Under the pieces are notes generated by a model. The model did not search any database. It saw only the letters and a list, made by a program, of their open reading frames with translations, and was not told the DNA's origin. From NCBI GenBank assembly GCA_946186245.1, contig CAMHMN010000006.1, positions 1 to 57,752 of the forward strand: a stretch of DNA of 57,752 nt, read 5' to 3'. This DNA comes from an uncultured Clostridia bacterium (GTDB taxonomy: Bacteria; Bacillota; Clostridia; Oscillospirales; Acutalibacteraceae). Below, one piece after another: positions 1-57,558 of the stretch. Position numbers and translations under genes: made by a program. Position 1 is the first letter of the stretch. Each line of letters begins with the position of its first letter.

Positions 1-138
1 CTATTTCATATCAATTTCGCTGTTTTGTATAGTACGGCGAATTGGGAAAGTATTAATTAATCTGCAAAAAAAAGCGACTTTACATCTCATAATTCAAAAA
101 TGCGTTTTTTGCCGAATTGCCGAGGTATAGCTCCCGTC

Positions 139-167
139 GTGACATTTTTGCAAATAGGGTGTTTAAT
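139..167 (+). promoter_or_regulatory. Promoter of first leader cassette
   Basis: GTGACA at 139-144 and TTTAAT at 162-167 are separated by 17 bp. They align with the better TTGAAG/TATAAT pair of the second cassette at 1944-1972, and the bases just downstream (AAGCATAGAACGG versus GAGCGTAGAACGA) are also conserved. Transcription would begin near 174 and run through the micro-ORF, the inverted repeat and the M23 peptidase gene. The promoter is weaker by match than the copy 2 promoter. Confidence 0.5.
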
Positions 168-228
168 AAGCATAGAACGGATCGGAGGTCATGATAAATG
201 GCAGATTCGGATTAAGGAGGGCATTTTA

Positions 229-321
229 ATGAAACAAAAACTAAGATTGAGTTATAAGAAAATGTTTAGTATAAGGCTGATGAATTATGGCTGCTCTTAT
301 ACCAGCTATGATACATTATAG
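229..321 (+). CDS. Leader micropeptide, copy 1 (30 aa)
   Basis: This is a 30-codon reading frame with an excellent ribosome binding site (AAGGAGG at 214-220, 8 nt before ATG). The peptide is basic at the N-terminus (MKQKLRLSYKK) and ends RLMNYGCSYTSYDTL, with one Cys and three Tyr in the last 11 residues. A 28-codon relative at 2032-2118 has its own ribosome binding site and the same 15 C-terminal residues. An upstream in-frame ATG at 100 would give 73 residues, but that extension is not conserved in copy 2, so the 229 start is preferred. There is no obvious signal peptide and I recognise no family. It could be a secreted signal or modified peptide, a cis-acting leader peptide, or a translated by-product of a conserved RNA. 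It lies 135 nt upstream of the first inverted-repeat arm's partner region and shares the transcript with the M23 peptidase. Confidence 0.55.
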   Translation: MKQKLRLSYKKMFSIRLMNYGCSYTSYDTL

Positions 322-327
322 GGGGTG

Positions 328-345
328 ATGAAAAAGAAAAAGTAG
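328..345 (+). other. Five-codon Met-Lys4 mini-ORF after the micropeptide
   Basis: Directly after the micropeptide stop comes a G-rich run and then ATG AAA AAG AAA AAG TAG. The same 18 bases follow copy 2 at 2125-2142. The block from 272 to 346 is base-for-base identical to 2069-2143, so conservation here may reflect RNA function rather than translation. The G-rich run sits too close to the ATG to be a good ribosome binding site. Function unknown. Confidence 0.3.
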
Positions 346-355
346 GATGGTTCGG

Positions 356-423
356 GAGTCAGTTTAGTATCTTTTAGTGTTTCAATGAATGACAATATAC
401 ACATTTAAATACTAAACTGACTC
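356..423. repeat. 15-bp perfect inverted repeat around 38 bp, copy 1
   Basis: Arm GAGTCAGTTTAGTAT (356-370) is the exact reverse complement of ATACTAAACTGACTC (409-423), and the 38-bp interior is 371-408. No T-run follows, so it is not an ordinary intrinsic terminator. It lies 54 bp upstream of the M23 peptidase start. The related element at 2153-2220 has the same arms and also a 38-bp interior, but that interior matches this one better in reverse-complement orientation (27/38) than in direct orientation (17/38). It may be an RNA hairpin, a protein-binding dyad or an invertible segment. Confidence 0.7.
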
Positions 424-477
424 AGATGAAAATTTATTTAAATTAATTGATTTTTAGAAAGGATGACCATAATTATT

Positions 478-1755
478 ATGAAAAGACATATTACGAGTAA
501 AAAATTCAAAAAATTCGTTGCCTTGCTGTCAGTAGCAGCATCACTGTTTATCACTTCGGTTTCCTCTGTCAATGCAACGCCTCATTTGACTGTTAATGCC
601 GCGAGTTCAGCTCCTTCTATTTCCTGTCAGGGGCATGTCCAGGATATCGGATGGCAAGGTGTAGTTACCAGCGGAGTTGGCATTAGCAGTACTGTTGGTA
701 CAGAAGGCAGATCACTCCGTCTGGAGGATTTGAAGCTACGCTTGAATAATGCTTCCGGTGGAATTAAAATCTCTACTCACGTTTCGTGCATTGGTTGGCT
801 CGGCTATTCCTCAGCATCATCCGGCTACTGGGCCGAATCGGGAACGACAGGGAGGTCATTGGCAATTGAAGCAGTGAAGATTGAACTTTACGGTTCGATT
901 GCTAGCTCTTATAATATAGTGTATAGAGTTCACAGTCAAAATATCGGATGGGGTAACTGGGTTCAAAATGGTGAAGAGGCTGGCACAACAGGACGTGGTC
1001 TGCGTGCGGAAGCAATTGGAATCAAGCTGGTTGCGAAAAACAACGTGACGACTACCTATTATGTGAAAACCAACGGTTCTAATCTGACGGTTCGCTCCGG
1101 TCCTTCTACCAGCTACACTTCTCTCGGTAAACTTTCTAACGGCACTGCTGTGAGTGTTTACAGTATTAGCAACGGCTGGGCTAAGATCAAGTTTGGAAGT
1201 GGAACAGGCTATGTTTCATCTGCTTACCTTACACAGACAAAATCAAATGTTGTTACCTCGTCTGGATGGCAGTGGCCGGTGGCTAATCGCCGTGTGACAC
1301 AGAGATTCGGATCTTACTCCAGTACTATGCAACAGCGTACAGGTCGTGGTTATCATTGTGGCATAGATATTGCCGACGTTAACCGTGGAACACCTGAAAT
1401 ACTTTCCGCAGCTTCTGGAACGGTTAAGTATCGCGGTTATTCGTCGGGTAACGGTAATCATATTGTGATTCAGCATAGTCTTAATGGTCAGACTGTATAT
1501 TCTCTCTATAGCCATTTGTCTAATTTTAATGGATGTCCTGCTGTCGGTGCGGCAGTTTCCAAGGGGCAGAAGATAGGCACAATGGGAAATACAGGTAACA
1601 GTTCAGGAACACATCTTCATTTTGGTATCTTTACAGGAACATATTCCTCAGATCCCGTAGGTTATACGACTAGCCCAAGTAATAATAAGAGCACTTATAA
1701 CGGAAGGACATTTTATAATCCTGAATACGTTATAGCTAACAACCGTCTTCCGTAA
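478..1755 (+). CDS. Secreted M23 peptidase with ChW and SH3 domains
   Basis: This is a secreted murein endopeptidase, expected to cut peptide cross-links in the wall. The start at 478 (MKRHITSKKF) is chosen because GAAAGGATGA at 457-466 is its ribosome binding site; the in-frame ATG at 463 lies inside that site. A signal peptide covers about residues 1-40. Three clostridial hydrophobic-W (ChW) repeats follow (about 52-187, each with an IGW core and GTTGR or GTEGR), then one bacterial SH3 domain (about 191-255, LTVRSGPSTSY), then an M23 LytM-type domain. The metal ligands are visible as H293xxxD297 and H379-L-H381. The gene is more AT-rich than most of the window. It is preceded by the micropeptide/inverted-repeat leader and followed by the 1836-1875 stem-loop. 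Confidence 0.9.
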   Translation: MKRHITSKKFKKFVALLSVAASLFITSVSSVNATPHLTVNAASSAPSISCQGHVQDIGWQGVVTSGVGISSTVGTEGRSLRLEDLKLRLNNASGGIKISTHVSCIGWLGYSSASSGYWAESGTTGRSLAIEAVKIELYGSIASSYNIVYRVHSQNIGWGNWVQNGEEAGTTGRGLRAEAIGIKLVAKNNVTTTYYVKTNGSNLTVRSGPSTSYTSLGKLSNGTAVSVYSISNGWAKIKFGSGTGYVSSAYLTQTKSNVVTSSGWQWPVANRRVTQRFGSYSSTMQQRTGRGYHCGIDIADVNRGTPEILSAASGTVKYRGYSSGNGNHIVIQHSLNGQTVYSLYSHLSNFNGCPAVGAAVSKGQKIGTMGNTGNSSGTHLHFGIFTGTYSSDPVGYTTSPSNNKSTYNGRTFYNPEYVIANNRLP

Positions 1756-1827
1756 GTTAGTTTATTTGATGCAGATTAAGAATAGGAGGTGATAGAACAA
1801 TTCATAACTATTCAGACAGCTAATAAC

Positions 1828-1891
1828 TTCCGGTTTGCCATGCGGGAGAGATGTACCTCTTTCTTCCGCATGGCATTGCCGGGAACAGGCT
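1828..1891. repeat. 3' stem-loop element, copy 1
   Basis: TGCCATGCGG (1836-1845) pairs with CCGCATGGCA (1866-1875), and inside it GAGAGA pairs with TCTTTC, leaving a six-base loop. The flanks match the element at 3936-3999 almost base for base. It follows the M23 gene and directly precedes the second leader. No T-run follows, so a plain intrinsic terminator is unlikely; a processing site, a protein-binding hairpin or a recombination end are alternatives. Confidence 0.65.
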
Positions 1892-1943
1892 GCGATGTTT
1901 TATCATAGCAATTTATGCCGAATTGCCGAATCAGAGTTCCCTT

Positions 1944-1972
1944 TTGAAGTTCATTTTAGCAACCTATATAAT
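1944..1972 (+). promoter_or_regulatory. Promoter of second leader cassette
   Basis: TTGAAG (1944-1949) and a perfect TATAAT (1967-1972) are 17 bp apart. The expected start, near 1979, gives a 5' region of about 53 nt before the 28-codon micro-ORF at 2032. The position and following bases are conserved with the 139-167 promoter. Confidence 0.7.
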
Positions 1973-2031
1973 GAGCGTAGAACGAGCCGGAGCTCACATA
2001 ATGACAGGTTCGAATGAAAGAGGGAATTCTT

Positions 2032-2118
2032 ATGAAACAAAAAATGAATTATAAGAAAATATTTAGTGCAAGGCTGATGAATTATGGCTGCTCTTATACC
2101 AGCTATGATACATTATAG
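2032..2118 (+). CDS. Leader micropeptide, copy 2 (28 aa)
   Basis: This 28-codon frame has GAAAGAGGG (2016-2024) about 8 nt before ATG. It ends RLMNYGCSYTSYDTL exactly as copy 1 does, and its N-terminus is two residues shorter and partly different (MKQKMNYKKIFSA). The two copies differ by replacements (M to I, I to A) in the middle and not at all over the last 48 bases. It sits upstream of the L,D-transpeptidase-like gene on the same predicted transcript. The family is unknown; see copy 1 for alternatives. Confidence 0.55.
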   Translation: MKQKMNYKKIFSARLMNYGCSYTSYDTL

Positions 2119-2152
2119 GGGGTGATGAAAAAGAAAAAGTAGGTCGTTTCGG

Positions 2153-2220
2153 GGGTCAGTTTAGTATTTTGATGTGTATGTCATAATACGCTGAAACACA
2201 AAGAGATACTAAACTGACTC
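2153..2220. repeat. 15-bp inverted repeat around 38 bp, copy 2
   Basis: Arms 2153-2167 and 2206-2220 are the same as at 356-423, with one change (GGGTCAG for GAGTCAG). The interior 2168-2205 is again exactly 38 bp. In this orientation it contains TGTCATAAT (2179-2187), an extended -10-like motif pointing at the downstream gene, which copy 1 lacks. No T-run follows. Confidence 0.7.
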
Positions 2221-2268
2221 GAAGGTAAATGAATTTAGGCAAAATATTTTGAAAGGATGAATTTGCAA

Positions 2269-3888
2269 ATGAAAAAGATCAACAAAACGACAGTGTTTAT
2301 TATGACATTGATATTGAGCCTGCTTGTCATTCCTATTGCAGGCCAGAAAGTGTACGCCGCGGGCGGTAATATTTCCTCTCTGCCCGTTTCTATCAAAGCC
2401 TATCCCGTCAGTACAGCCAATAATACCCCTGCTTTTGCCAACAAGGGCGATGGCAACAAGAGCGGTACGATTTATGCGGCTGATCTTTGCACGATAACCC
2501 GGATTGACGGCGATGGGTGGTTGATTGTGAATTATCCCACAAGCAACAACCGTACCCGCACGCTCTTTGTCAAAGCGAGGGATTTCTTCTGCGCCACCTC
2601 GTTTCAGGAGGCTTCGATCAGCAAGTACGCCACGGCGTACAGGCGCTCTTCAGGATCTGAGAGCATCGGTTCCGTCGATTCCGCCGACAATCTGGTGTAT
2701 GTGATTGGCTCGCCCCAGAATAACCGTTCCCAGATTGTCTATAAGGTGACAAATTCCAACTACTACAAGATGGGATGGGTAAGAACAGATGCCATCCGCT
2801 TTCAGTCCACTTCTTACAATCCCCAGGGGTGCTTTGACAGCGTTGTGTCCAATGCCGCCAACCAGATTACCGTGCGTGGCTGGGCGTTCGACAAGGACAA
2901 TACTTCCAAGGCTATTGACGTGCATGTATATGTGGGAGGTCCTGCGGGTTCGGGCTACGGTGTGAGCCTCACAGCGAACACTTCACGCCCCGACGTGCAC
3001 AAGGTTTTCGGTTGCGGCAATAACCATGGTTTCGACCGCACTTATTCGCTGCCGGCGAAGTACGCCGGAACGACCCAGACAGTCTATGTTTATGCCATCA
3101 ACATCGGCGGCGGCTCCAATCAGCTGATTGGTACCAAAACCGTTACAATCAAGGGTAAAGCGGTGAGCGACAACAATTTTATCAAGGAAGACAATCTCAA
3201 GACAGCTGCCGCAAATTACGGCATTGATACGAACAGCAATGCCTATGAGGCGCTGAAACTGATCAACACCAAGTATGCAAGCCAGTTGTCCGCTGCTCAG
3301 AAGCAAGGTACGATCGTGCTGATGTTTGAAGGCGTCGGAACCAGCAGCAGTCCCTCCAAGCGGGAAAATGCCATGTGCGTCGTGGTGAAGAACGGAACCA
3401 TTGTTTATATCAACCGTTCCTCTTCCAGCCTCCCGGACTACCCCTTCACACCGTCCAAAAACGGAGGAACGCCCATGCCGACCCTTAAGTCGGGAACCTA
3501 TACCTTTACCACGGTCAATCACCGTCAGCAGTATGCGGCTCTTAATGTCAGCGGTGCCAGCGTAGTGAGATTCCGCTCATCTAACAGCTGGTACAGTGAT
3601 ACGTCTCCCGCCATCAATATTCACAGAAAGAGTTCCGATAGTATTGCGGGTGCCAACCAGAGCTGGGTCAATAGTGCTGGTTGCCAGCTTGTCGGAAGAA
3701 CAGGTACCGACAAATCTTCGGATTATGCGAAATTTATCCAAAGTGTCGGTATTGTCAACGCTAATGCAGCCGGTAATGTTGGATATACCTATTCGGTGAC
3801 AGGAATTTACATTGTGGATCGTTCCTATGCGTATCAGTATATGCGTAACATCGGTTATTCCGACGCCGCCATTCGTGCCATCGGATAA
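2269..3888 (+). CDS. Secreted L,D-transpeptidase-like wall protein
   Basis: This is a secreted protein of about 539 residues. The start at 2269 (MKKINKTT) is preferred because GAAAGGATG just before it is the ribosome binding site; the in-frame ATG at 2257 overlaps that site. The signal peptide ends near AGQKVYA. An SH3-like region (about 30-165) is followed by a beta-sandwich-like domain of the GWAFD type (about 180-285). The C-terminal domain carries H452 (NIHRKSS) and, 20 residues later, NSAGC with Cys472. That spacing and the GC context resemble the His...(S)xGC active site of YkuD-type L,D-transpeptidases, but the usual SHGC reads SAGC here. The likely role is peptidoglycan cross-linking or remodelling. 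The family call is an inference from this motif alone. The protein is unrelated in sequence to the M23 protein that shares its type of leader. Confidence 0.65.
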   Translation: MKKINKTTVFIMTLILSLLVIPIAGQKVYAAGGNISSLPVSIKAYPVSTANNTPAFANKGDGNKSGTIYAADLCTITRIDGDGWLIVNYPTSNNRTRTLFVKARDFFCATSFQEASISKYATAYRRSSGSESIGSVDSADNLVYVIGSPQNNRSQIVYKVTNSNYYKMGWVRTDAIRFQSTSYNPQGCFDSVVSNAANQITVRGWAFDKDNTSKAIDVHVYVGGPAGSGYGVSLTANTSRPDVHKVFGCGNNHGFDRTYSLPAKYAGTTQTVYVYAINIGGGSNQLIGTKTVTIKGKAVSDNNFIKEDNLKTAAANYGIDTNSNAYEALKLINTKYASQLSAAQKQGTIVLMFEGVGTSSSPSKRENAMCVVVKNGTIVYINRSSSSLPDYPFTPSKNGGTPMPTLKSGTYTFTTVNHRQQYAALNVSGASVVRFRSSNSWYSDTSPAINIHRKSSDSIAGANQSWVNSAGCQLVGRTGTDKSSDYAKFIQSVGIVNANAAGNVGYTYSVTGIYIVDRSYAYQYMRNIGYSDAAIRAIG

Positions 3889-3935
3889 TCCGAAGATGGT
3901 GACATCCGGCAGGAATTTTCTATAAGCCTTAAAAA

Positions 3936-3999
3936 CAGCGGTTTGCCATGCGGGAGAGACGTGCTTCTTTCTTCCGCATGGCATTGCTGGGAATAGGCG
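3936..3999. repeat. 3' stem-loop element, copy 2
   Basis: TGCCATGCGG (3944-3953) and CCGCATGGCA (3974-3983) form the same hairpin as at 1836-1875, with the same 20-base spacing and differences mainly in the terminal loop (TGTACC versus CGTGCT). It lies 55 bp after the L,D-transpeptidase-like gene and upstream of the 1156-residue gene's promoter. Confidence 0.65.
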
Positions 4000-4020
4000 A
4001 GCATGAATTATGATAACCTG

Positions 4021-4049
4021 TTGATTTACACGGAAATGTATGATACAAT
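4021..4049 (+). promoter_or_regulatory. Promoter of the large orphan gene
   Basis: TTGATT (4021-4026) and TACAAT (4044-4049) are spaced by 17 bp and lie 33 bp upstream of the ATG at 4083. No micropeptide leader or 15-bp inverted repeat is present here, unlike in the two upstream units. Confidence 0.6.
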
Positions 4050-4082
4050 ATGGTTAATTCGTTTTCAAAAGGAGTGAATTTT

Positions 4083-7000
4083 ATGACAATAAGACAGTAT
4101 CTTGAAGGACTGACGCTTTTGAATCCTTCCTTGACTAATAAAGAGTGCCTTGCACTGCTAGAGCCGGTCAAGAGAAACGGTGCCATTACGAAACGATTGA
4201 AAAACTGGTTGGACGATCATGGGATCAGCGCAGTGATAAACGTTTCGAATAAATCAGACATCGAAGCTCTGGCTTGGTACTGGCATAAGGTCTTCCGTGG
4301 CACCGAGGAAGAAAACAGAGTTATGGACTACTGGATGCGGGTCAACAGTATAGATATTCTTTTAATGGAGCAGGAAAGGCTTTTTGAAGAATATCTGAAT
4401 AAACAATTTCTTCAACCTAAATACAGAAAAGAATGTGTCAATGCGATGTCCGCCGGTGGATCACTGACCGGAAAATTACAAGAGAAACATCTTCTTGCCA
4501 CCGGTGAATCACTTCTGATGGCGAAAATAGAAACCGTTCAGAAAGTAGCGGATGGGTTGGTCAATGGCGAACTGAATGACCTGCGCTCTGATTTGAAAAG
4601 TATGCTGAATCATTTCCTGAAATGGAAAGGTGTGACAGAGCATACCGTTGTTGCGCGGGAACGTGTGACGGAGACAGGGGTTTCTGTTCCGTCTCACGGC
4701 GTGCGCTTTCTCCGTGTGCTGCAATTATACAAATCCGGCTTGGATCAAAGTGCTTTAGAGGCCTATGATCATCTGATTAAAGCTTTGAGTAACGGAATAT
4801 TTCGCTACGAAGGAAAATCAAGCATTCACACGGAGCGTGCAAGTGAATTTAAATCGTTTCACAGGTGCGCACTGGAGGAATGGCAGAACCATCCGGACGG
4901 GGTCAAAAAAAGATTCCTGAAGTATATCACAGACGAGCAGCTGCAAAAGGTCTGTCTGAAAACCGCCGAGAGGCTATTCGGCGATCATGGCGAAAAGTGG
5001 CCGAATGTTCTGCAATATATGAGCGATCATGCCATTGCCTATGAAAACACGATAGCCGCGGCGGCGGAAGAACTGTATGTGAAGGCTATGGAGGAAGAAC
5101 CGAATGCCGATACGCTGGCAGAAGTCTATCTGAAATTGGTCTGCCGCATATTAAACGACTGCTATGAGGAAAATCCAGACGTCAATCCAGGGATTCCGGC
5201 AGGGGCGACGCTGCGCGATCCCGCTTTCTGGAAAGGCAATCTTCTTTCCGACTGGCTCCGCAGCACCAGACCAGATGAAACAACGACGGCTCTCTTGACT
5301 GATATTCCCGTTCCCGATGACAACGAAGCGTTCGACTGCCTGCTTGCAACCGTGTTTCATGCGTCACTGTATTATGCCGATGCCTGTATGGGACGTGAGG
5401 AAGAAGATTGCGGCAAGGTATTATGGTTTCCCATTGAGCCGGAAGCAACGCGTGAGAACGCAGAAAAAGCCTACGATTATCTTCATACAGCTCTGAATGA
5501 TCTGAATCGTTGCCCGACGCAGTGTGAAAGAGCGCTTTCCGGATGTAAATCGGAATGGTATGAGCCGGTGCGCGGTTCCATGTTGCTCGGCAAACCGCAA
5601 TGTGAACTGTCCGTCGTGCTGCTGCTGCGAATGGCGGCACTGCATCAGATGCAGGCGTCCTGTCCGGAGGAGAATCCCGAAAAGAAGGGCGTCCACCTGA
5701 TGAATGCAAAAAAGTATCTCCACGAATGCGAAACCATTTTGCACCACCGACAGGATGACTATCAGATTTCCGCAGAGATAGCCGAAAACATATGTGACAA
5801 ACGTTGCACAATGGTTTGCATGCCCCTGCTTCTGTGGGTCTACCTGCAAATAGCAAAGGCGGAATACACGCTGTCACTCGTGGAAGACAACGAAATCTGG
5901 ACAGAAGACATCGTCGAACTGTATATCGAGCCGGTACACCGGCATATGGCAAGCGCAAAAAAGCTGATAGACGCCATAAAATCAGAGGAAGCAAAAAAAT
6001 ATATCGACCCCTCCACATTTGCTTCACTGGAAAAGGCATGGCTTGATCAATGCGAAGAATACACGCTGACTTTTTTTGATGCAGACAACGCTATCCCCTC
6101 ACGCATGAAGCTGTTCAACGAGGACGGTGAACAGCTATACCGTGAAGAATATGAGCTATGGCGTGAAGCGTTCCCATTTTCTTCTGAAACGGTGCGACGT
6201 TTTCCCACCTTCCGGAGGCGTACCGATGATGAAGCAGTGGAATCTGCCGATACCTTTGAAGCAGTCTATATGAGTACACTCGACAGTGTAGCTGGTAAGA
6301 GTGACAATCATCAGGAAAACATGGAGCTTTCCCTTTTCCGTCAGATTGCCAACGGAAAAACGATTTTGCTCCAATTCAACCAGATTGTAGACAACAAAGC
6401 GATGCACCATCTGATGTATGTTCCGGGATTTCGCTGGCTGTGTCGCCGCGGCATTATCGCGCTTTCGTGCTACGGAGAAGTCAGCAGTCCCCGCACCTAT
6501 CTGATGAACAATCTCAGGAATCCCGGCTTCCTGTTCAGCAGTTCCAAATGGTATGCGCTCGATGAGGCGACAGAAGCATTTCTCAAGAATTTACCCAGTA
6601 CTTGTCGCGGTCAAATGCTCACCTGTCTGCAAAACAATCATTTCGACCCATCCCTGTTCGCACCGGAACAGCGCACGGAAATGAAATATCAGTTTGAAGC
6701 CTATCAAAAACAATTCTATAGCACCTGCCGCGGTCAAATGCTTACCTGTCTGGAAAACAACCATTTCACCCCGTCCCTGTTTGCACTGGAACAGCGCGAA
6801 GAGATGGAATTCCTGTTTGACGCTTATCTCATGATGTTTGATTGTTTCCAGCCTTCGGACATTCGGCGTTTCCATCAGAACCCGAAATACCGGTGGCCGT
6901 ACACATCTTCCTTAGGTCGCGCGGTACCGCTGAATGAAGTACTGGCTCAGCGTGTGTCACTGATCAGTCAGAAGCCCACAACGCGACAGGAACTACGGGA

Positions 7001-7553
7001 AGCACTTTCCCACTATACGACCAGATGGGGAAACAAGAACAAGCGTTCCGACTATGACACTTTGATAGACATAGAAATGGAAAAGGCAAAGTCGCAAGAA
7101 GAAAAAGATCTGCTTGAAAAATTCCGAAAGGTCGTTTACCAAGCTTATTTTATTTCCAACGGCAGAAGATCCTCTGACGCAGTACTGCTTACAGACGACG
7201 ATCCTGAGCTTGTCGTACCGGAAACCGGTATTTTGATGGACAGTCGAAGCAGTACTTCTGTCAAACTGGTATTAGACACGGTAAGCTATTCCAGCGAGCA
7301 TCCCAATGCAAACTGGACAGACTTAGGCGAAGTTGCCATGGAATGCCGCAGAATAGAACAGAGCTTCGCTAACGCTACAAAGGAAATCATCGCCAAGAAG
7401 AAACACGAATATACCGGTTTCGACTACACCGTTAAAAAAGATGAAGTCATTGTGCAGGAGATAACTCCCTCCACATCACAGCATATCTGCAAAACCATTC
7501 GCCTCGCAGGCGAAGGCGATTCTCCCACAGAAACGACAGAATTAATTAAATAA
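4083..7553 (+). CDS. Large protein of unknown family (1156 aa)
   Basis: I do not recognise this family. The start at 4083 (MTIRQYLEGL) is supported by AAAAGGAG about 8 nt upstream; the in-frame ATG at 4050 overlaps the promoter. There is no signal peptide and no membrane segment, so it is probably cytoplasmic. It is mostly helical and charged, with many Leu/Glu-rich stretches such as those seen in helical-repeat proteins. A more ordered block around residues 755-835 contains LLQFNQIVDN and PGFRWLCRRGIIALSCYG. Residues 839-879 and 880-920 are a tandem duplication, each starting STCRGQMLTCL. The Nudix gene follows 40 bp later and is probably co-transcribed. Possible roles include signalling or defence, but nothing visible decides it. 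Confidence 0.85.
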   Translation: MTIRQYLEGLTLLNPSLTNKECLALLEPVKRNGAITKRLKNWLDDHGISAVINVSNKSDIEALAWYWHKVFRGTEEENRVMDYWMRVNSIDILLMEQERLFEEYLNKQFLQPKYRKECVNAMSAGGSLTGKLQEKHLLATGESLLMAKIETVQKVADGLVNGELNDLRSDLKSMLNHFLKWKGVTEHTVVARERVTETGVSVPSHGVRFLRVLQLYKSGLDQSALEAYDHLIKALSNGIFRYEGKSSIHTERASEFKSFHRCALEEWQNHPDGVKKRFLKYITDEQLQKVCLKTAERLFGDHGEKWPNVLQYMSDHAIAYENTIAAAAEELYVKAMEEEPNADTLAEVYLKLVCRILNDCYEENPDVNPGIPAGATLRDPAFWKGNLLSDWLRSTRPDETTTALLTDIPVPDDNEAFDCLLATVFHASLYYADACMGREEEDCGKVLWFPIEPEATRENAEKAYDYLHTALNDLNRCPTQCERALSGCKSEWYEPVRGSMLLGKPQCELSVVLLLRMAALHQMQASCPEENPEKKGVHLMNAKKYLHECETILHHRQDDYQISAEIAENICDKRCTMVCMPLLLWVYLQIAKAEYTLSLVEDNEIWTEDIVELYIEPVHRHMASAKKLIDAIKSEEAKKYIDPSTFASLEKAWLDQCEEYTLTFFDADNAIPSRMKLFNEDGEQLYREEYELWREAFPFSSETVRRFPTFRRRTDDEAVESADTFEAVYMSTLDSVAGKSDNHQENMELSLFRQIANGKTILLQFNQIVDNKAMHHLMYVPGFRWLCRRGIIALSCYGEVSSPRTYLMNNLRNPGFLFSSSKWYALDEATEAFLKNLPSTCRGQMLTCLQNNHFDPSLFAPEQRTEMKYQFEAYQKQFYSTCRGQMLTCLENNHFTPSLFALEQREEMEFLFDAYLMMFDCFQPSDIRRFHQNPKYRWPYTSSLGRAVPLNEVLAQRVSLISQKPTTRQELREALSHYTTRWGNKNKRSDYDTLIDIEMEKAKSQEEKDLLEKFRKVVYQAYFISNGRRSSDAVLLTDDDPELVVPETGILMDSRSSTSVKLVLDTVSYSSEHPNANWTDLGEVAMECRRIEQSFANATKEIIAKKKHEYTGFDYTVKKDEVIVQEITPSTSQHICKTIRLAGEGDSPTETTELIK
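6597..6842 (+). repeat. Tandem 123-bp in-frame repeat inside the orphan gene
   Basis: Unit 1 is 6597-6719 and unit 2 is 6720-6842, 41 codons each with no spacer. Both encode STCRGQMLTCL followed by xNNHFxPSLFAxEQR. The ends of the units have diverged in sequence, so the duplication is not brand new. Confidence 0.85.
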
Positions 7554-8773: not shown

Positions 8774-9124
8774 TGGTGGAGGCGAGGAGAATCGAACTCC
8801 TGTCCAAAAACCGCTTACCACTGCTTTCTACGGGTGTAGTTTGTCTATAGCATTCCCCCGGGAAGGAGCCGGCAAACAGGCTGGTTTCCGAAGTATCCTC
8901 TGATGCGTGATGAACTACGAGGCTGCTCATTCATGCACGTTCACCGCTGATCGACGCCCACATGCGGCCGCGGTACTCCGCAATAGGACGCGCCGCGTTT
9001 AATTACGCAGCGAGTGCAACTGTATTGTTGTCAGTTAATTTTAAGGTTTTCAGTTTTGAAGTGAGCCTGAGATCACTACCCGCTTACAATGACTCGCAAT
9101 CCCTGTCGAAACCATTGCGCCCCC
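8774..9124 (-). ncRNA. ssrA: Transfer-messenger RNA (tmRNA)
   Basis: tmRNA rescues stalled ribosomes and tags the unfinished protein for proteolysis. Read on the minus strand, the 5' end is GGGGGCGCAATGGTTTCGAC and the 3' end contains the T-arm GTTCGATTC and finishes CGCCTCCACCA. The 7-bp acceptor stem GGGGGCG/CGCCTCC closes with one G-U pair. The total length is 351 nt, normal for a one-piece tmRNA. The tag reading frame ends at TAA near 9004 and reads TDNNTVALAA at its C-terminus; I could not fix the resume codon with certainty. The gene has its own promoter and terminator. The 3' ends of ssrA genes are common integration sites. Confidence 0.95.
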
Positions 9125-16451: not shown

Positions 16452-19400
16452 TTACAACCAGTTGACGTCGGAGGGAAGCTTGAATTTATTCTCCCGGTCA
16501 ATTTTGTAATCACCCGAGATGAAAAGCTCGGCTTCGTTGCGTCTGCGGTACCACAGTCCCTTATATGGCAGACCGTTTGATTTGTGATAACGGCAGAAAC
16601 CGTCGATAATCTGATCCGAAACGGCCTTGCTGCCATCACGATGAGAGAGGATGGCTGCCTTCAGATAAAACTTATTGGTATCGCTGTCCCACAGCGACGG
16701 ACCGATGTTATAGCAGAAAGACACAAGCGCGTCAAACTGTGCCTGATTGAGCTTGACGCCGTTTCTGACAGCCCAATTGTTGATGGACTTTACGTAATCT
16801 CCATTGTTGAGATCGGCGTTGAGAAGCAGCTTGGCGGCGGATTCCGTGAGATAGGGACGATTATCCGTGAGGATGTAATCTTCGCCGATCAGTTTGACGA
16901 TATCGCTGTTGAATTCCGTAATGGCACGCTCTTCCGACCAGGATTTGCTGGCGGTGGCGGTCTTGGCATGTCCATAGCCCAATGTCCAGAAGCCGGAAAC
17001 GTCCTTATAAGGATAGAAGACCTTTTTGCCGTTGGGCAATATCGTTTCTCCGCCTTCCCAGTTGGCAATGAATTCCGCGCCCTTTTCACTGATCTTAAAC
17101 TGCTGGACATTGCTGTTGGGATTCTTGAGAACAACCACGCAAACTGACGAGGTAACGCTGCCGCATTTTGCCGTAATGGTATAAAGACCTTCCTTAACGC
17201 CTGAAGCAACTCCTGCGTCGGTCACAGGGCACTTGCTCTGATCAGAAGACGAATACGTTACGACAGAACCTTTCATCGTTCTGCCCAGATTGATGGACTG
17301 TCCGACGTTCAGATAGTAATAATCCCCGGCATAGCTCATTCCGTCCGCTTTCACAGTGGTTTTGATGTTCTTAATGTAACTGGCGTTGACGTAACCCTTG
17401 CCGTTGCCGTATTCTATCTGGTGCCATGCGCTTCCTTTGGAAACGATGACAACGGTAGCTCCCTTTTTCACCGAGCCAATGGAAGCGTAACTGGTTCCGG
17501 GACCTTTGCGGACAACCAGGCTGGACGAAGTGCAATTCACCGTGCCTGTCACCACATTCTTCGTGAGGGAAGCGACTGCGGTAGGACTGATCGGCACACC
17601 TGTCGTGGTTATTTCCGTTTTGGAGGTGACGCTTGCCGTTGCCGACGTTTCAGCTGACTTGGAAGTAGTCGGCTTTGCCTCTGAAGTATCGGGACTGAGG
17701 TGTTCAGACTCCGAGGGAGTGGCGTCAGTCGCTTTTATCGTGGTCGTCTTGGTGGTTGTGTTACCTGCTGTCGTCGTGTCGGAATCGTCGATTTTGACAT
17801 AATCCCCGATAATCCAGCCACTCTTGCCTGATGACAGCTTGATGCAGTACCAGTTGTTTTTCGTATCGGTATAGGTGAATTTGGCATCTTTCTTGACGGT
17901 TGTGATCTTATCGTAGTTGGTTCCCGCGCCGCTGCGTACATTGACTGATGCGCCGATCACGGTGAGCGTTCCGGTTTTGGTACTTGTCTGGGTTGTTTCC
18001 TTTTCCGGTGTCACCTTTACATAATTGCCCAGAACCCAACCTTTCTTGGAACTGCTGACAGTGATATAGTACCATTTTTCATTGCCGACCGTCTTGATAT
18101 TGGTAAAGCTGTAGGAGGTATTCTTTTTTACTGTCGTGACAATCTTAGCCTTTGCGCTTGCATCGCCGCGGACATTGAGTACTTCGGCTGTCACCGTGAG
18201 CTTGCCGCTGGTCTTGCCGGAATCGGCTTGTGTCGATTTGGTGGTTTCCTTGGTGGATTTAGCGGTGGTTGAATTGGGCTTTGCCGTGACATAATTGCCC
18301 ATAACCCACCCGCTGATGGAATTATTGATCTTGATGTAGTACCACTCAACTCCGTCCACTTTTTGGGTTTTGCTGTAAGTATATACCGCGTCCCTTTTGG
18401 CTGTGAACAGCTTTTTGGAGGATGTGCTCGTCGATTCACGGACATTCAGCTGATCAACCGCAACAGTGACAGTCCCTCCGTTCGGGTCTGTCGAAGTGAC
18501 AATGGTAGTCTTTTTGGTGGTCTGGATGGTGGTGAGCGCGTCCTTTGGGGTGGCGCTTACCATTGTTCCCAGCACCCAGCCGCTGATGGAACTGTTGACC
18601 TTGATGTAGTACCACTTGACTCCATCGACGGTTTTGACATTGCTGTAGCTGTATTCTTCGTCGCGTTTGGTGGTATAAAGCCTCTTGGAGGTGGTGCTGG
18701 TGGATTGACGTACCTGCAGAATATCCACGATCACTTTCAGCTTGCCGCTTTTTGCGGAAGACGTGGTATTCTCATTCGTTTCAATCGGAGTAGCCCATTT
18801 GCCGAGAACCCATCCGCTGACATTCTTATTGACCTTGATATAATACCATTTTTCACCGCTGACGGTTTTCACATCGGTGAAATAATATGTCTGTCCGGCT
18901 TTGACGGTGTAGAGCTTCTGAGCGGAAGTGCTTGCGGTCTTACGGACATTGAGCACATTGCCTGTGACCTTGATGATACCGCTCTTGGCGTTGCTGTTCT
19001 GGGCCGGCTGTGCGGAATTCACGGTGACCTCTACATAGTCAGAGCAGACATATCCCGATCCGACGCCTGTTTTGATCTTGTACCATTTGGTGCCGTCACT
19101 CTCGGAAGCTTCCCCTTCGACGGTGAACTTCTGACCGGCTTTCACAGTAGTGATGAGTTTTCCGTTGGGCGAAGCAGTCGCACGCACATTGAGGAGCGTG
19201 GCTTTGACCTCGATGGTTTTAGAGGTGCCGCTTATGACGGAATTGATCATATTGAGCGTCTGCGTTCCGGCCACTCCGTCGGCGGTAAGATGGTAGTCGC
19301 TCTGGAATTTCTTCACAGCGTTTTCGGTGGCAGTGTCATACGTGCCTGTTGCGGAACCGCTCTTTAAGTAATTCAGTTTGATGAGATTGTTCTGGAGCTT

Positions 19401-19556
19401 CGTCACTTCGCTGCCTGTGGAGTTCTTACGAAGAGATGACGTCGCCGCCGAAACAGTGATCACTTCTTTGAACAAAAGCGCATCGGTCGTCACGTAGGTC
19501 GACGAGCCCAGAATGGCTGCCGCCACAACAACCGCCGCGATCCTTTTAAAATTCAT
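16452..19556 (-). CDS. Secreted GH24 lysozyme with seven SH3 repeats
   Basis: This is a 1034-residue wall hydrolase. The start is at 19556 (MNFKRIAAVV), with AAAGGAG 11 nt upstream. After a signal peptide (to about residue 40) come a peptidoglycan-binding type 1 domain (about 45-105), then seven bacterial SH3 domains (about 115-700, each with an LNVR- or VRxx-type opening and a GWVLG- or GYV-like end) separated by Thr/Ser-rich linkers. A BIG2-like region follows (about 735-800). The C-terminal domain is GH24 phage-type lysozyme (about 810-1020), with the Glu in NWEGGE and downstream YKDVSGFWTLGYGHA, matching the E-(x)-D-(x)-T catalytic arrangement. It cleaves the MurNAc-GlcNAc bond. The repeat number is high for this class. 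Confidence 0.9.
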   Translation of the reverse strand: MNFKRIAAVVVAAAILGSSTYVTTDALLFKEVITVSAATSSLRKNSTGSEVTKLQNNLIKLNYLKSGSATGTYDTATENAVKKFQSDYHLTADGVAGTQTLNMINSVISGTSKTIEVKATLLNVRATASPNGKLITTVKAGQKFTVEGEASESDGTKWYKIKTGVGSGYVCSDYVEVTVNSAQPAQNSNAKSGIIKVTGNVLNVRKTASTSAQKLYTVKAGQTYYFTDVKTVSGEKWYYIKVNKNVSGWVLGKWATPIETNENTTSSAKSGKLKVIVDILQVRQSTSTTSKRLYTTKRDEEYSYSNVKTVDGVKWYYIKVNSSISGWVLGTMVSATPKDALTTIQTTKKTTIVTSTDPNGGTVTVAVDQLNVRESTSTSSKKLFTAKRDAVYTYSKTQKVDGVEWYYIKINNSISGWVMGNYVTAKPNSTTAKSTKETTKSTQADSGKTSGKLTVTAEVLNVRGDASAKAKIVTTVKKNTSYSFTNIKTVGNEKWYYITVSSSKKGWVLGNYVKVTPEKETTQTSTKTGTLTVIGASVNVRSGAGTNYDKITTVKKDAKFTYTDTKNNWYCIKLSSGKSGWIIGDYVKIDDSDTTTAGNTTTKTTTIKATDATPSESEHLSPDTSEAKPTTSKSAETSATASVTSKTEITTTGVPISPTAVASLTKNVVTGTVNCTSSSLVVRKGPGTSYASIGSVKKGATVVIVSKGSAWHQIEYGNGKGYVNASYIKNIKTTVKADGMSYAGDYYYLNVGQSINLGRTMKGSVVTYSSSDQSKCPVTDAGVASGVKEGLYTITAKCGSVTSSVCVVVLKNPNSNVQQFKISEKGAEFIANWEGGETILPNGKKVFYPYKDVSGFWTLGYGHAKTATASKSWSEERAITEFNSDIVKLIGEDYILTDNRPYLTESAAKLLLNADLNNGDYVKSINNWAVRNGVKLNQAQFDALVSFCYNIGPSLWDSDTNKFYLKAAILSHRDGSKAVSDQIIDGFCRYHKSNGLPYKGLWYRRRNEAELFISGDYKIDRENKFKLPSDVNWL

Positions 19557-19621
19557 TTGTGAATAAACTCCTTTCATATAATTATGAAAATCGTCCCCAG
19601 AATAAAAGTATTCCTTTTAAT

Positions 19622-56523: not shown

Positions 56524-57558
56524 TCAGTTATTGTTCTGCTTTGCGGGGTTGATAGATGTGATCAAGATACGCTTGATCTCAAGGCAGTCGCTCAACATGG
56601 AAGCTGCCATAATGTTTGCACCGATGGAAGTGCCGCTGCGAAGAATCTGTTTTGCAATAATGGATTCATGCTTAGTTTCAGAAAGATAACGATAGCCGTT
56701 GTCTGAACCTTCAAATAACAACATACTCTTATCTTTGATCGTCTGCTCTATGACTTCCTGAAGTACCGGCATAAGCGGCTTGGGGATCGGCACCTGACGC
56801 ACTCCCGCTTTTGTCTTTGGCGGTCCAAGAACGGCTTTGCGCCCTGTCTGTCCCGCCACTTCCGGGTAGGTGATCTGCTTATTGACCGTGAGTCTATTGT
56901 CTTTCACGTCGTTCACGGTCAGAGCGAGGGCTTCTCCTCGCCGGAGTCCGCAATAATACATCAGCAGCACGATCGGACCTATACGAGCGGTCTTGGCCCC
57001 TTCCAGTGCGATGCGCTGCTGCTCCTTGGTAAGAGCATCACGGACAACCGGCTCCGCGCCGCTGACGGTCAGATTGGCCGCCGGATTACGCGGAATAATA
57101 TCGTCCGTCACGGCCTGATTAAAAACGGCATAGAGCAGGCTGCGGATTTCCTTGACCGTCTTTTGACTGTAGGGCTTCTGTTTTGGTCCGTATGTGGAGC
57201 CGGCGACATCGTTAAGCAGCTTTTGGAGATGATGCCGCTTGACGTCGATCATCCGCATGGAGCCGATCGCCGGCCGGATATGCTTTCTGATCATGCCCAG
57301 ATAACTTGACTGTGTGTTTTTCCGCAGCGGCGTGACATAGGTTTCCACATACATATCCAGCCACTTGCCGACGAGGATCCGGTTGTCTGTAATAAATCCC
57401 TGCTCCTTCTGGGCGTGGAACTGCTGCACCTTCGCATCCAGCTCCGCCACCGTCTTGCCGTAAAGGGTCTTATACTTTATCCTGCCGGCTTCGGTGTATT
57501 CGCCTGTGGCAATCTGGGTGTAATACAATCCGTTCTCACGCTTTTTATATTTTGCCAT
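56524..57558 (-). pseudogene. Broken tyrosine integrase fused to a four-helix-bundle remnant
   Basis: Residues 1-275 are a phage/ICE-type tyrosine recombinase. There is an arm-binding N-terminus (KYKKRENGLYYTQIATGEY), a core-binding domain, and a catalytic domain with Arg206 in YYCGLRRGEALAL and Lys in PPKTKAGVRQVPIP. The HxxR box and the catalytic Tyr are missing. Instead, residues about 293-341 read AKQILRSGTSIGANI and then DCLEIKRILITSI, which resemble the beginning and end of the four-helix-bundle (23S rRNA intervening-sequence type) proteins with the middle deleted. The product cannot be an active recombinase. GGGGAG precedes ATG 57558. Confidence 0.8.

Follow-up and report, generated by a model that had tools for sequence, protein, structure and literature searches.

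Two unlike wall-protein genes between matching leaders and 3′ hairpins: a likely duplicated control region with a flipped repeat spacer in an uncultured Clostridia bacterium

At the left end of contig CAMHMN010000006.1 from an uncultured Clostridia bacterium of the Acutalibacteraceae (assembly GCA_946186245.1), two genes for predicted secreted wall proteins stand in tandem between flanking sequences that are near copies of one another. The window, by which we mean the whole contig (C6; 57,752 nucleotides (nt)) of this 2.6-Mb, 107-contig genome, holds the pair as two units, at about 105-1911 and about 1912-4015. Shared by both units are a 5′ leader, comprising a promoter region, a short leader open reading frame (ORF), an identical core and an inverted repeat, and a 3′ hairpin (Table 1). 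The flanks are homologous and the units abut, similarity between the coding parts has been lost, the core and the repeat arms are conserved, and the spacer between the arms is flipped from one copy to the other. We read the flanks most probably as a control region that has been duplicated; a cassette is not demonstrated. The fuller history that we prefer, and to which we give roughly even chances, is that an ancestral unit was duplicated in tandem, that its coding modules were swapped while the control sequences were kept, that the leader ORF and hairpin jointly control both genes, and that the spacer was flipped passively.

When the leaders are aligned (about 110-462 with about 1916-2262), 261 of the 353 columns are identical, and identity is 70.5% (170/241) once the core and the repeat spacer are set aside. 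The 3′ hairpins are identical at 55 of their 60 positions, and the flank similarity between units has an expect value (E) of 5e-51. Between these flanks the coding parts show no nucleotide similarity (blastn, best E 3.4) and the two proteins no credible similarity (best E 0.16 in a three-sequence comparison), so that the first-pass annotation of this DNA was right to describe near-copy leaders and 3′ stem-loops around unrelated genes. The hairpin block of unit 1 ends at the start of the unit 2 leader. Comparison of the outer flanks with this internal junction gives no in-register similarity: the best match on the left has E 1.2, and that on the right (E 0.055) spans 19 nt around a Shine-Dalgarno (SD) site and start codon and lies out of register. 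A faint resemblance just past the second hairpin is visible in the unit-to-unit comparison. Abutting units whose outer flanks are unlike their internal junction have the geometry of a tandem duplication. The position at a short contig end in a genome of so many contigs might raise the suspicion of an assembly artefact; however, the flank similarity is too strong for chance, and outside the core about 30% of sites have diverged between the copies, which therefore do not represent a collapsed or duplicated assembly path. Chance or artefact is already refuted by this divergence pattern, and we give it next to no probability.

Table 1. Positions of the genes and flanking elements of the tandem pair in the window.
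Feature	Position	Strand	Remarks
Conserved box TGCCGAATTGCCGA, copy 1	110..123	+	upstream of promoter 1; 14/14 identical to copy 2
Promoter 1, GTGACA-17-TTTAAT	139..167	+	predicted, sigma-A-like; weight-matrix score 9.4
Leader ORF 1, MKQKLRLSYKKMFSIRLMNYGCSYTSYDTL	229..321	+	SD-like AAGGAGG upstream; start codon uncertain
Identical core, copy 1	273..346	+	74 bp: end of leader ORF, stop, SD-like GGGGGTGATG, in-frame mini-ORF MKKKK
Inverted repeat, copy 1	356..423	+	15-bp arms exact, 38-nt spacer; 54 nt before gene 1 start codon
Gene 1, 425 aa	478..1755	+	3 ChW + SH3_3 + Peptidase_M23 (Pfam); putatively secreted, from its N-terminus
3′ hairpin 1	1831..1890	+	no U tract; z -6.3 against shuffles
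Conserved box TGCCGAATTGCCGA, copy 2	1916..1929	+	14/14 identical to copy 1
Promoter 2, TTGAAG-17-TATAAT	1944..1972	+	predicted, sigma-A-like
Leader ORF 2, MKQKMNYKKIFSARLMNYGCSYTSYDTL	2032..2118	+	alternative start, ATG at 2014
Identical core, copy 2	2070..2143	+	74/74 identical to copy 1
Inverted repeat, copy 2	2153..2220	+	arms with 1 mismatch in 15, spacer flipped; 48 nt before gene 2 start codon
Gene 2, 539 aa	2269..3888	+	L,D-transpeptidase-like motif in C-terminal domain; putatively secreted, from its N-terminus
3′ hairpin 2	3939..3998	+	z -4.8 against shuffles

The gene of unit 1 had been called an M23 peptidase, and the Pfam profile PF01551 supports this with 80.2 bits against a cut-off of 28.7. 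Gene 2 is harder to place. It has no Pfam or NCBIfam match, and its C-terminal domain has no Pfam match at E up to 10, no YkuD-type profile match, no relevant match in the PDB and no usable fold from AlphaFold (predicted local distance difference test, pLDDT, 33). The domain carries INIH ... S[AS]GC, invariant in three aligned sequences (gene 2 and two relatives), and His ... SxGC is the catalytic motif of L,D-transpeptidases. By this motif gene 2 is in line with an L,D-transpeptidase-like cysteine enzyme; the earlier label keeps its motif, and finds no counterpart among profiles or solved structures.

Each of the 18 genomes of the genus matches gene 1 over part of its length and none holds a close full-length relative, the best place besides gene 1 itself having 45% identity over residues 49-190 and the next 35% over residues 200-402. 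At E 1e-30, matches among 398 family genomes are confined to its own genome, G326 and G055. For gene 2 the 17 congeners gave no match; among 397 other family genomes, 14 encode proteins of other lengths that match it over one region or another. In IMG/VR, partial relatives of gene 1 were found at seven loci and none of gene 2.

A 492-residue protein of G326, a member of another genus, resembles both genes (locus L047, G326:C9, 1486-2964). Its residues 1-173 match residues 1-176 of protein 2 (34%, E 8e-19), and its end is 55% identical to residues 257-425 of protein 1, the M23 part, so that modules like those of both genes are combined in one protein elsewhere. Leader and repeats of the window pair are both absent from this locus, where inspection by eye showed a divergent regulator-like gene and, at the promoter, an inverted repeat. 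The first-pass argument that a simple duplication would keep the genes similar is weakened by this mosaic. Because G326 joins parts like both genes, duplication with module replacement is a sufficient, though unproven, history for the pair. An ancestral unit of leader, secreted wall-protein gene and 3′ hairpin would have been duplicated in tandem in this lineage, and the coding parts would then have been replaced through exchange of wall-protein modules, the control sequences being kept. We infer this order, duplication first and module exchange second, together with the peptide- and hairpin-based control considered below.

Alternatively, an unrelated wall gene may have acquired its neighbour's leader and 3′ hairpin by flank duplication or gene conversion, with no gene duplication at all. 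Such a capture of control sequences would sit well with the unlike coding parts, with the lack of convincing similarity between units in the 75 and 50 nt that separate stop codon and hairpin, and with the GC contents of the genes (44.7% for gene 1 and 50.6% for gene 2). It needs, however, two coordinated flank transfers that leave the units abutting, and the G326 protein shows that such modules are joined elsewhere; we regard it as unlikely, though deserving of some weight.

The leaders themselves point to shared control. The conserved box TGCCGAATTGCCGA, allowing at most one mismatch, occurs at three places in the whole of its own genome, two of them being the two leaders; in the 17 congeners it gives 33 matches against 9 for a reversed control pattern, and we claim no regulon from these. 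It resembles a doubled Spo0A box. The first-pass annotation had mentioned a micro-ORF and a mini-ORF in the leader, with no coordinates of their own; the ORFs found here are the leader ORFs of Table 1 and, in frame beyond the stop, MKKKK (328-345). Both leader ORFs have SD-like sites, copy 2 carries an in-frame deletion of 6 nt, and the last 15 residues are identical between copies. In the same frame just upstream, four codon differences are silent and three are not, the latter including a stop in copy 2; the number of silent ones has P 0.004, in one of three frames examined. Translation may therefore begin upstream of the conserved ATG.

The stop codon of the leader ORF lies directly at the SD-like GGGGGTGATG, after which MKKKK runs in frame to a TAG. 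The identical block, previously given as 75 bp, measures 74 bp, since its supposed first base is T in one copy and C in the other. At the background identity of 70.5%, a run of 74 identical bases has a probability of about 6e-10, and the core is therefore either under unusual constraint or has been homogenised. The leaders gave no credible Rfam family at gathering score or at E up to 10, and the sub-threshold matches look like chance. A hammerhead ribozyme, for which CUGAUGA before a stem had been considered, was dropped; by eye no GAAA follows the stem.

Between the core and each gene stands the inverted repeat, predicted to form an RNA hairpin that is more stable than shuffled sequences (z -3.5 for 340-480 and z -5.7 for 2140-2272). 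This leader hairpin ends before the SD site of the gene, no U tract was seen by eye after its stem, and the folds made contain no structure sequestering the SD site, although alternative folds were not searched exhaustively. The spacers of the two copies (371-408 and 2168-2205) are identical at 27 of 38 positions when one is inverted and at 17 of 38 when compared directly. None of 20,000 shuffles reaches the inverted alignment score, whereas 20% reach the direct score; positions that match in one orientation alone number 12 inverted and 2 direct (sign test 0.006), and a harsher control, in which mirrored pairs were flipped independently, gives P 0.03 for block inversion. A repeat search likewise reports an inverted repeat of 83% between 356-421 and 2155-2220. 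Inversion of the spacer between the copies, a feature absent from the first-pass annotation, is well supported by these comparisons, if not overwhelmingly so. The spacer is homologous after reverse complementing and the stem is kept, as in minute inversions of hairpins.

Small inversions of this kind are described for chloroplast trnH-psbA, where loops of 25-27 bp between palindromic stems of 18 bp flip often (PMC2903610). As in that case, a short loop between inverted repeats has flipped with its stem retained, and the spacer length is comparable; the difference is that here the inversion lies in a bacterial 5′ leader and is seen between two paralogous copies. We consider the flip most likely to be a passive minute inversion and not a programmed switch. 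The sequence after the stem is unchanged by flipping and lacks a U tract, so that no terminator would arise from it; the folds of both orientations are similar; and no recombinase gene was found beside the repeats on this contig, which begins about 104 nt upstream of the first leader. On these grounds passive inversion is preferred.

A programmed inverton, in which a site-specific recombinase would flip the spacer and toggle each wall gene, was weighed against this. The sizes would allow it, a 15-bp repeat (with one mismatch in copy 2) around 38 nt falling within the range of about 10-40 nt given for inverton repeats (PMC11892184). The model would be cwpV, a cell-wall gene of Clostridioides difficile, where 21-bp inverted repeats with 195 bp between them lie 57 bp ahead of the start codon and downstream of the promoter, and form a recombinase-driven switch with a terminator proposed in the OFF state (PMC2784873). 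The likeness is one of position: inverted repeats in the leader of a wall-protein gene, about 50-57 bp before the start codon, with the promoter upstream of the repeats. The opposite spacer orientations would also suit a switch, and a weak promoter-like ATGACA-18-TAAACT points toward gene 1 in copy 1, its counterpart in copy 2 pointing away from gene 2. The present leaders differ from cwpV in their 15-bp arms, in an additional leader ORF and in a 38-nt spacer in place of 195 bp, the last of these counting against the putative switch. The spacers have diverged, so the flip is old; the same U-less sequence follows the stem in both orientations, and flipping alters the fold little. No cwpV-type terminator was found in either orientation. 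In a search that covered tyrosine recombinases, five places were found in the genome (one below its family cut-off) and none beside the repeats; those not on other contigs lie at the far end of this contig, at a distance of about 54 kb. The frequent flipping of chloroplast hairpins with similarly short loops likewise counts against the switch. All this makes a recombinase-driven inverton improbable in our judgement.

More speculative, and very doubtful, is a two-layer switch of a new kind, in which a very short invertible hairpin, with its 38-nt spacer far below the size of the cwpV element, would separate each wall gene from its peptide-encoding leader. Independent flipping of the two leaders, by a recombinase or by replication slippage, would choose which wall protein is made, and the four near-identical arms could also recombine between units, swapping the genes behind the promoters.

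Among 34 proteins of the window and the leader peptide scanned with Pfam, the one mobility-type protein is the integrase-like ORF at the far right end (56524-57558, minus strand). The last part of this ORF is weakly like a four-helix-bundle or 23S rRNA intervening-sequence protein, which may be a fusion or a chance match.

Returning to tandem duplication with kept control sequences, the most probable function is that two different wall proteins are controlled in common, through a leader that carries a short ORF and a hairpin. The first-pass annotation had proposed a gene-capture or shared-control unit; its second half is supported, because conservation of the box (14/14), of the 74-bp core and of the arms clearly exceeds the background of 70%, while its first half, capture by a dispersed cassette, is not. 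Each gene would be transcribed from its own copy of the promoter into a messenger RNA (mRNA) with a leader of about 290 nt, encoding a peptide of 28-30 residues with a basic start and the invariant end NYGCSYTSYDTL. The leader ORF would end at an SD-like site, and the 15-bp hairpin would then form about 50 nt before the start codon of the enzyme. One signal may set the expression of both wall proteins by way of leader-ORF translation and the leader hairpin, and the 3′ hairpin, which lacks a U tract, may protect or end the mRNA.

In bacterial operons with a leader peptide, an upstream short ORF with an SD-like site is followed by an RNA structure before the main gene. The present leaders share this layout but differ in that there is no terminator, no SD-sequestering structure in the folds and no peptide relative among the sequences searched. 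Among the best 80 of 226 relatives of gene 1 in the species genomes, the best full-length one, from an uncultured Clostridiaceae (locus L074), has a c-di-GMP-I riboswitch (a cyclic dimeric GMP sensor class; 61.2 bits) at 3790-3865, upstream of the ChW/M23 gene; the contig also carries a Clostridiales-1 RNA at 468-625. This relative, like gene 1, has a regulatory RNA in its leader, and RNA-level control of such enzymes therefore has a precedent, although the riboswitch is unrelated to the window leader.

The pair is a clean example of control sequences, those of a gene that was probably duplicated, outliving the genes themselves. The parts that were kept (74-bp core, repeat arms, upstream box and 3′ hairpin) point to the functional elements of a leader of otherwise unknown type. 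Its most unusual detail is the flipped spacer, which represents a small inversion of a hairpin within the 5′ leader of a bacterial gene; were it a living switch, control of the cwpV kind would reach to much shorter elements.

The distribution of the flanks bears on whether they could be the ends of a cassette. In its own genome the leader occurs twice and the 3′ hairpin twice, all at this pair; neither occurs in the 17 congeners. Blastn found no leader DNA in 299 other family genomes, with at most two candidates scored per genome, so that diverged leaders could escape, and the inverted-repeat pair pattern was absent from 397 other family genomes. A profile of the leader peptide gave nothing at a credible level in 387 other family genomes: 32 of 388, its own included, reach E 0.1, and the best other match (E 0.0012) is about what chance gives for so many. 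None of nine such loci that were read holds a leader; of the best-looking, one match is out of frame in a 458-aa ORF and another is the end of a 291-aa ORF. IMG/VR, searched by four patterns, gave no match; the exact 10-residue peptide pattern is absent from 84,980 species genomes, where diverged leaders could escape; and in plasmids and phages leader DNA has short chance-level matches only (best E 0.1).

The 80 relatives of gene 1 kept from the species genomes form 78 loci. Together with others they make 140 non-window loci, in which neither leader nor hairpin (blastn) nor leader peptide (tblastn) was found. The strongest DNA matches there, at E 0.002, are two isolated AT-rich stretches with lengths of 25-28 nt; among the peptide matches, none is better than E 0.76. 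In a wider set of 191 loci, which includes profile hits chosen for their likeness, the best peptide match (E 0.001) proved unrelated. Upstream regions read at L039, L047, L074, L048, L055, L056 and L060 hold no such leader. The best reading is of a duplicated leader specific to this lineage.

A gene-capture cassette, with the conserved ends acting as recombination sites that mobilise different genes, would explain conserved ends around unlike contents. Yet the searches return one tandem pair in one genome and none in related genomes or the other collections, the very outcome by which the first-pass annotation said its dispersed cassette should fall. Integron attC-type core sites, RYYYAAC and GTTRRRY, are paired at cassette ends; both are absent from the leaders and 3′ hairpins, with four isolated matches elsewhere in 1-4300. 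An integron array has many cassettes with different genes, and here there are two units in a genome that is 87% complete. The conserved leader elements, a promoter, an SD-like site and an ORF, look regulatory. The cassette is largely refuted by the searches, and we hold it to be highly improbable.

Several observations weigh against the history and control that we prefer. Because the proteins are unlike in both of their halves, the history requires a minimum of two replacement events, and the searches found no intermediate. The contig starts about 104 nt upstream of the first leader and the genome is incomplete to the extent just given, so further units or neighbours could be missing. The identity of the core could also be explained by gene conversion, and the core region folds no better than shuffles at 200-345 (z 0.14) and only slightly better at 2000-2140 (z -1.2). 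Within the leader ORF (244-270), codon differences are 0 silent and 4 non-silent, which stands against the SD-like sites, in-frame indel and upstream silent changes as evidence of translation, all drawn from two copies. No terminator-like site follows the leader hairpin on the plus strand, so that classical attenuation is not supported. RNAalifold on the two leaders finds 4 of 62 predicted pairs changed on both sides, too few to test the structure, and for the 3′ hairpin, again from two copies, the figure is 1 of 24.

Some further features of the window may be recorded. In the 3′ part of unit 1, a strong SD-like AGGAGGTGAT at 1784-1793 has no evident gene after it and by eye is absent from unit 2. 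Directly downstream of the pair, a 1167-aa ORF (4050-7553) has no Pfam or NCBIfam match. A 1041-aa protein at 16452-19577 (minus strand), with six SH3_3 stretches, PG_binding_1 and a phage-lysozyme domain, is encoded without the leader. The one Rfam match in the window above gathering score is the transfer-messenger RNA (tmRNA) at 8774-9124 (minus strand); the tag given by ARAGORN, AARPIAEYRGRMWASISGERA, looks misread, and the Rfam alignment, with the frame set by eye, gives ...TDNNTVALAA and a stop, a normal ALAA end.

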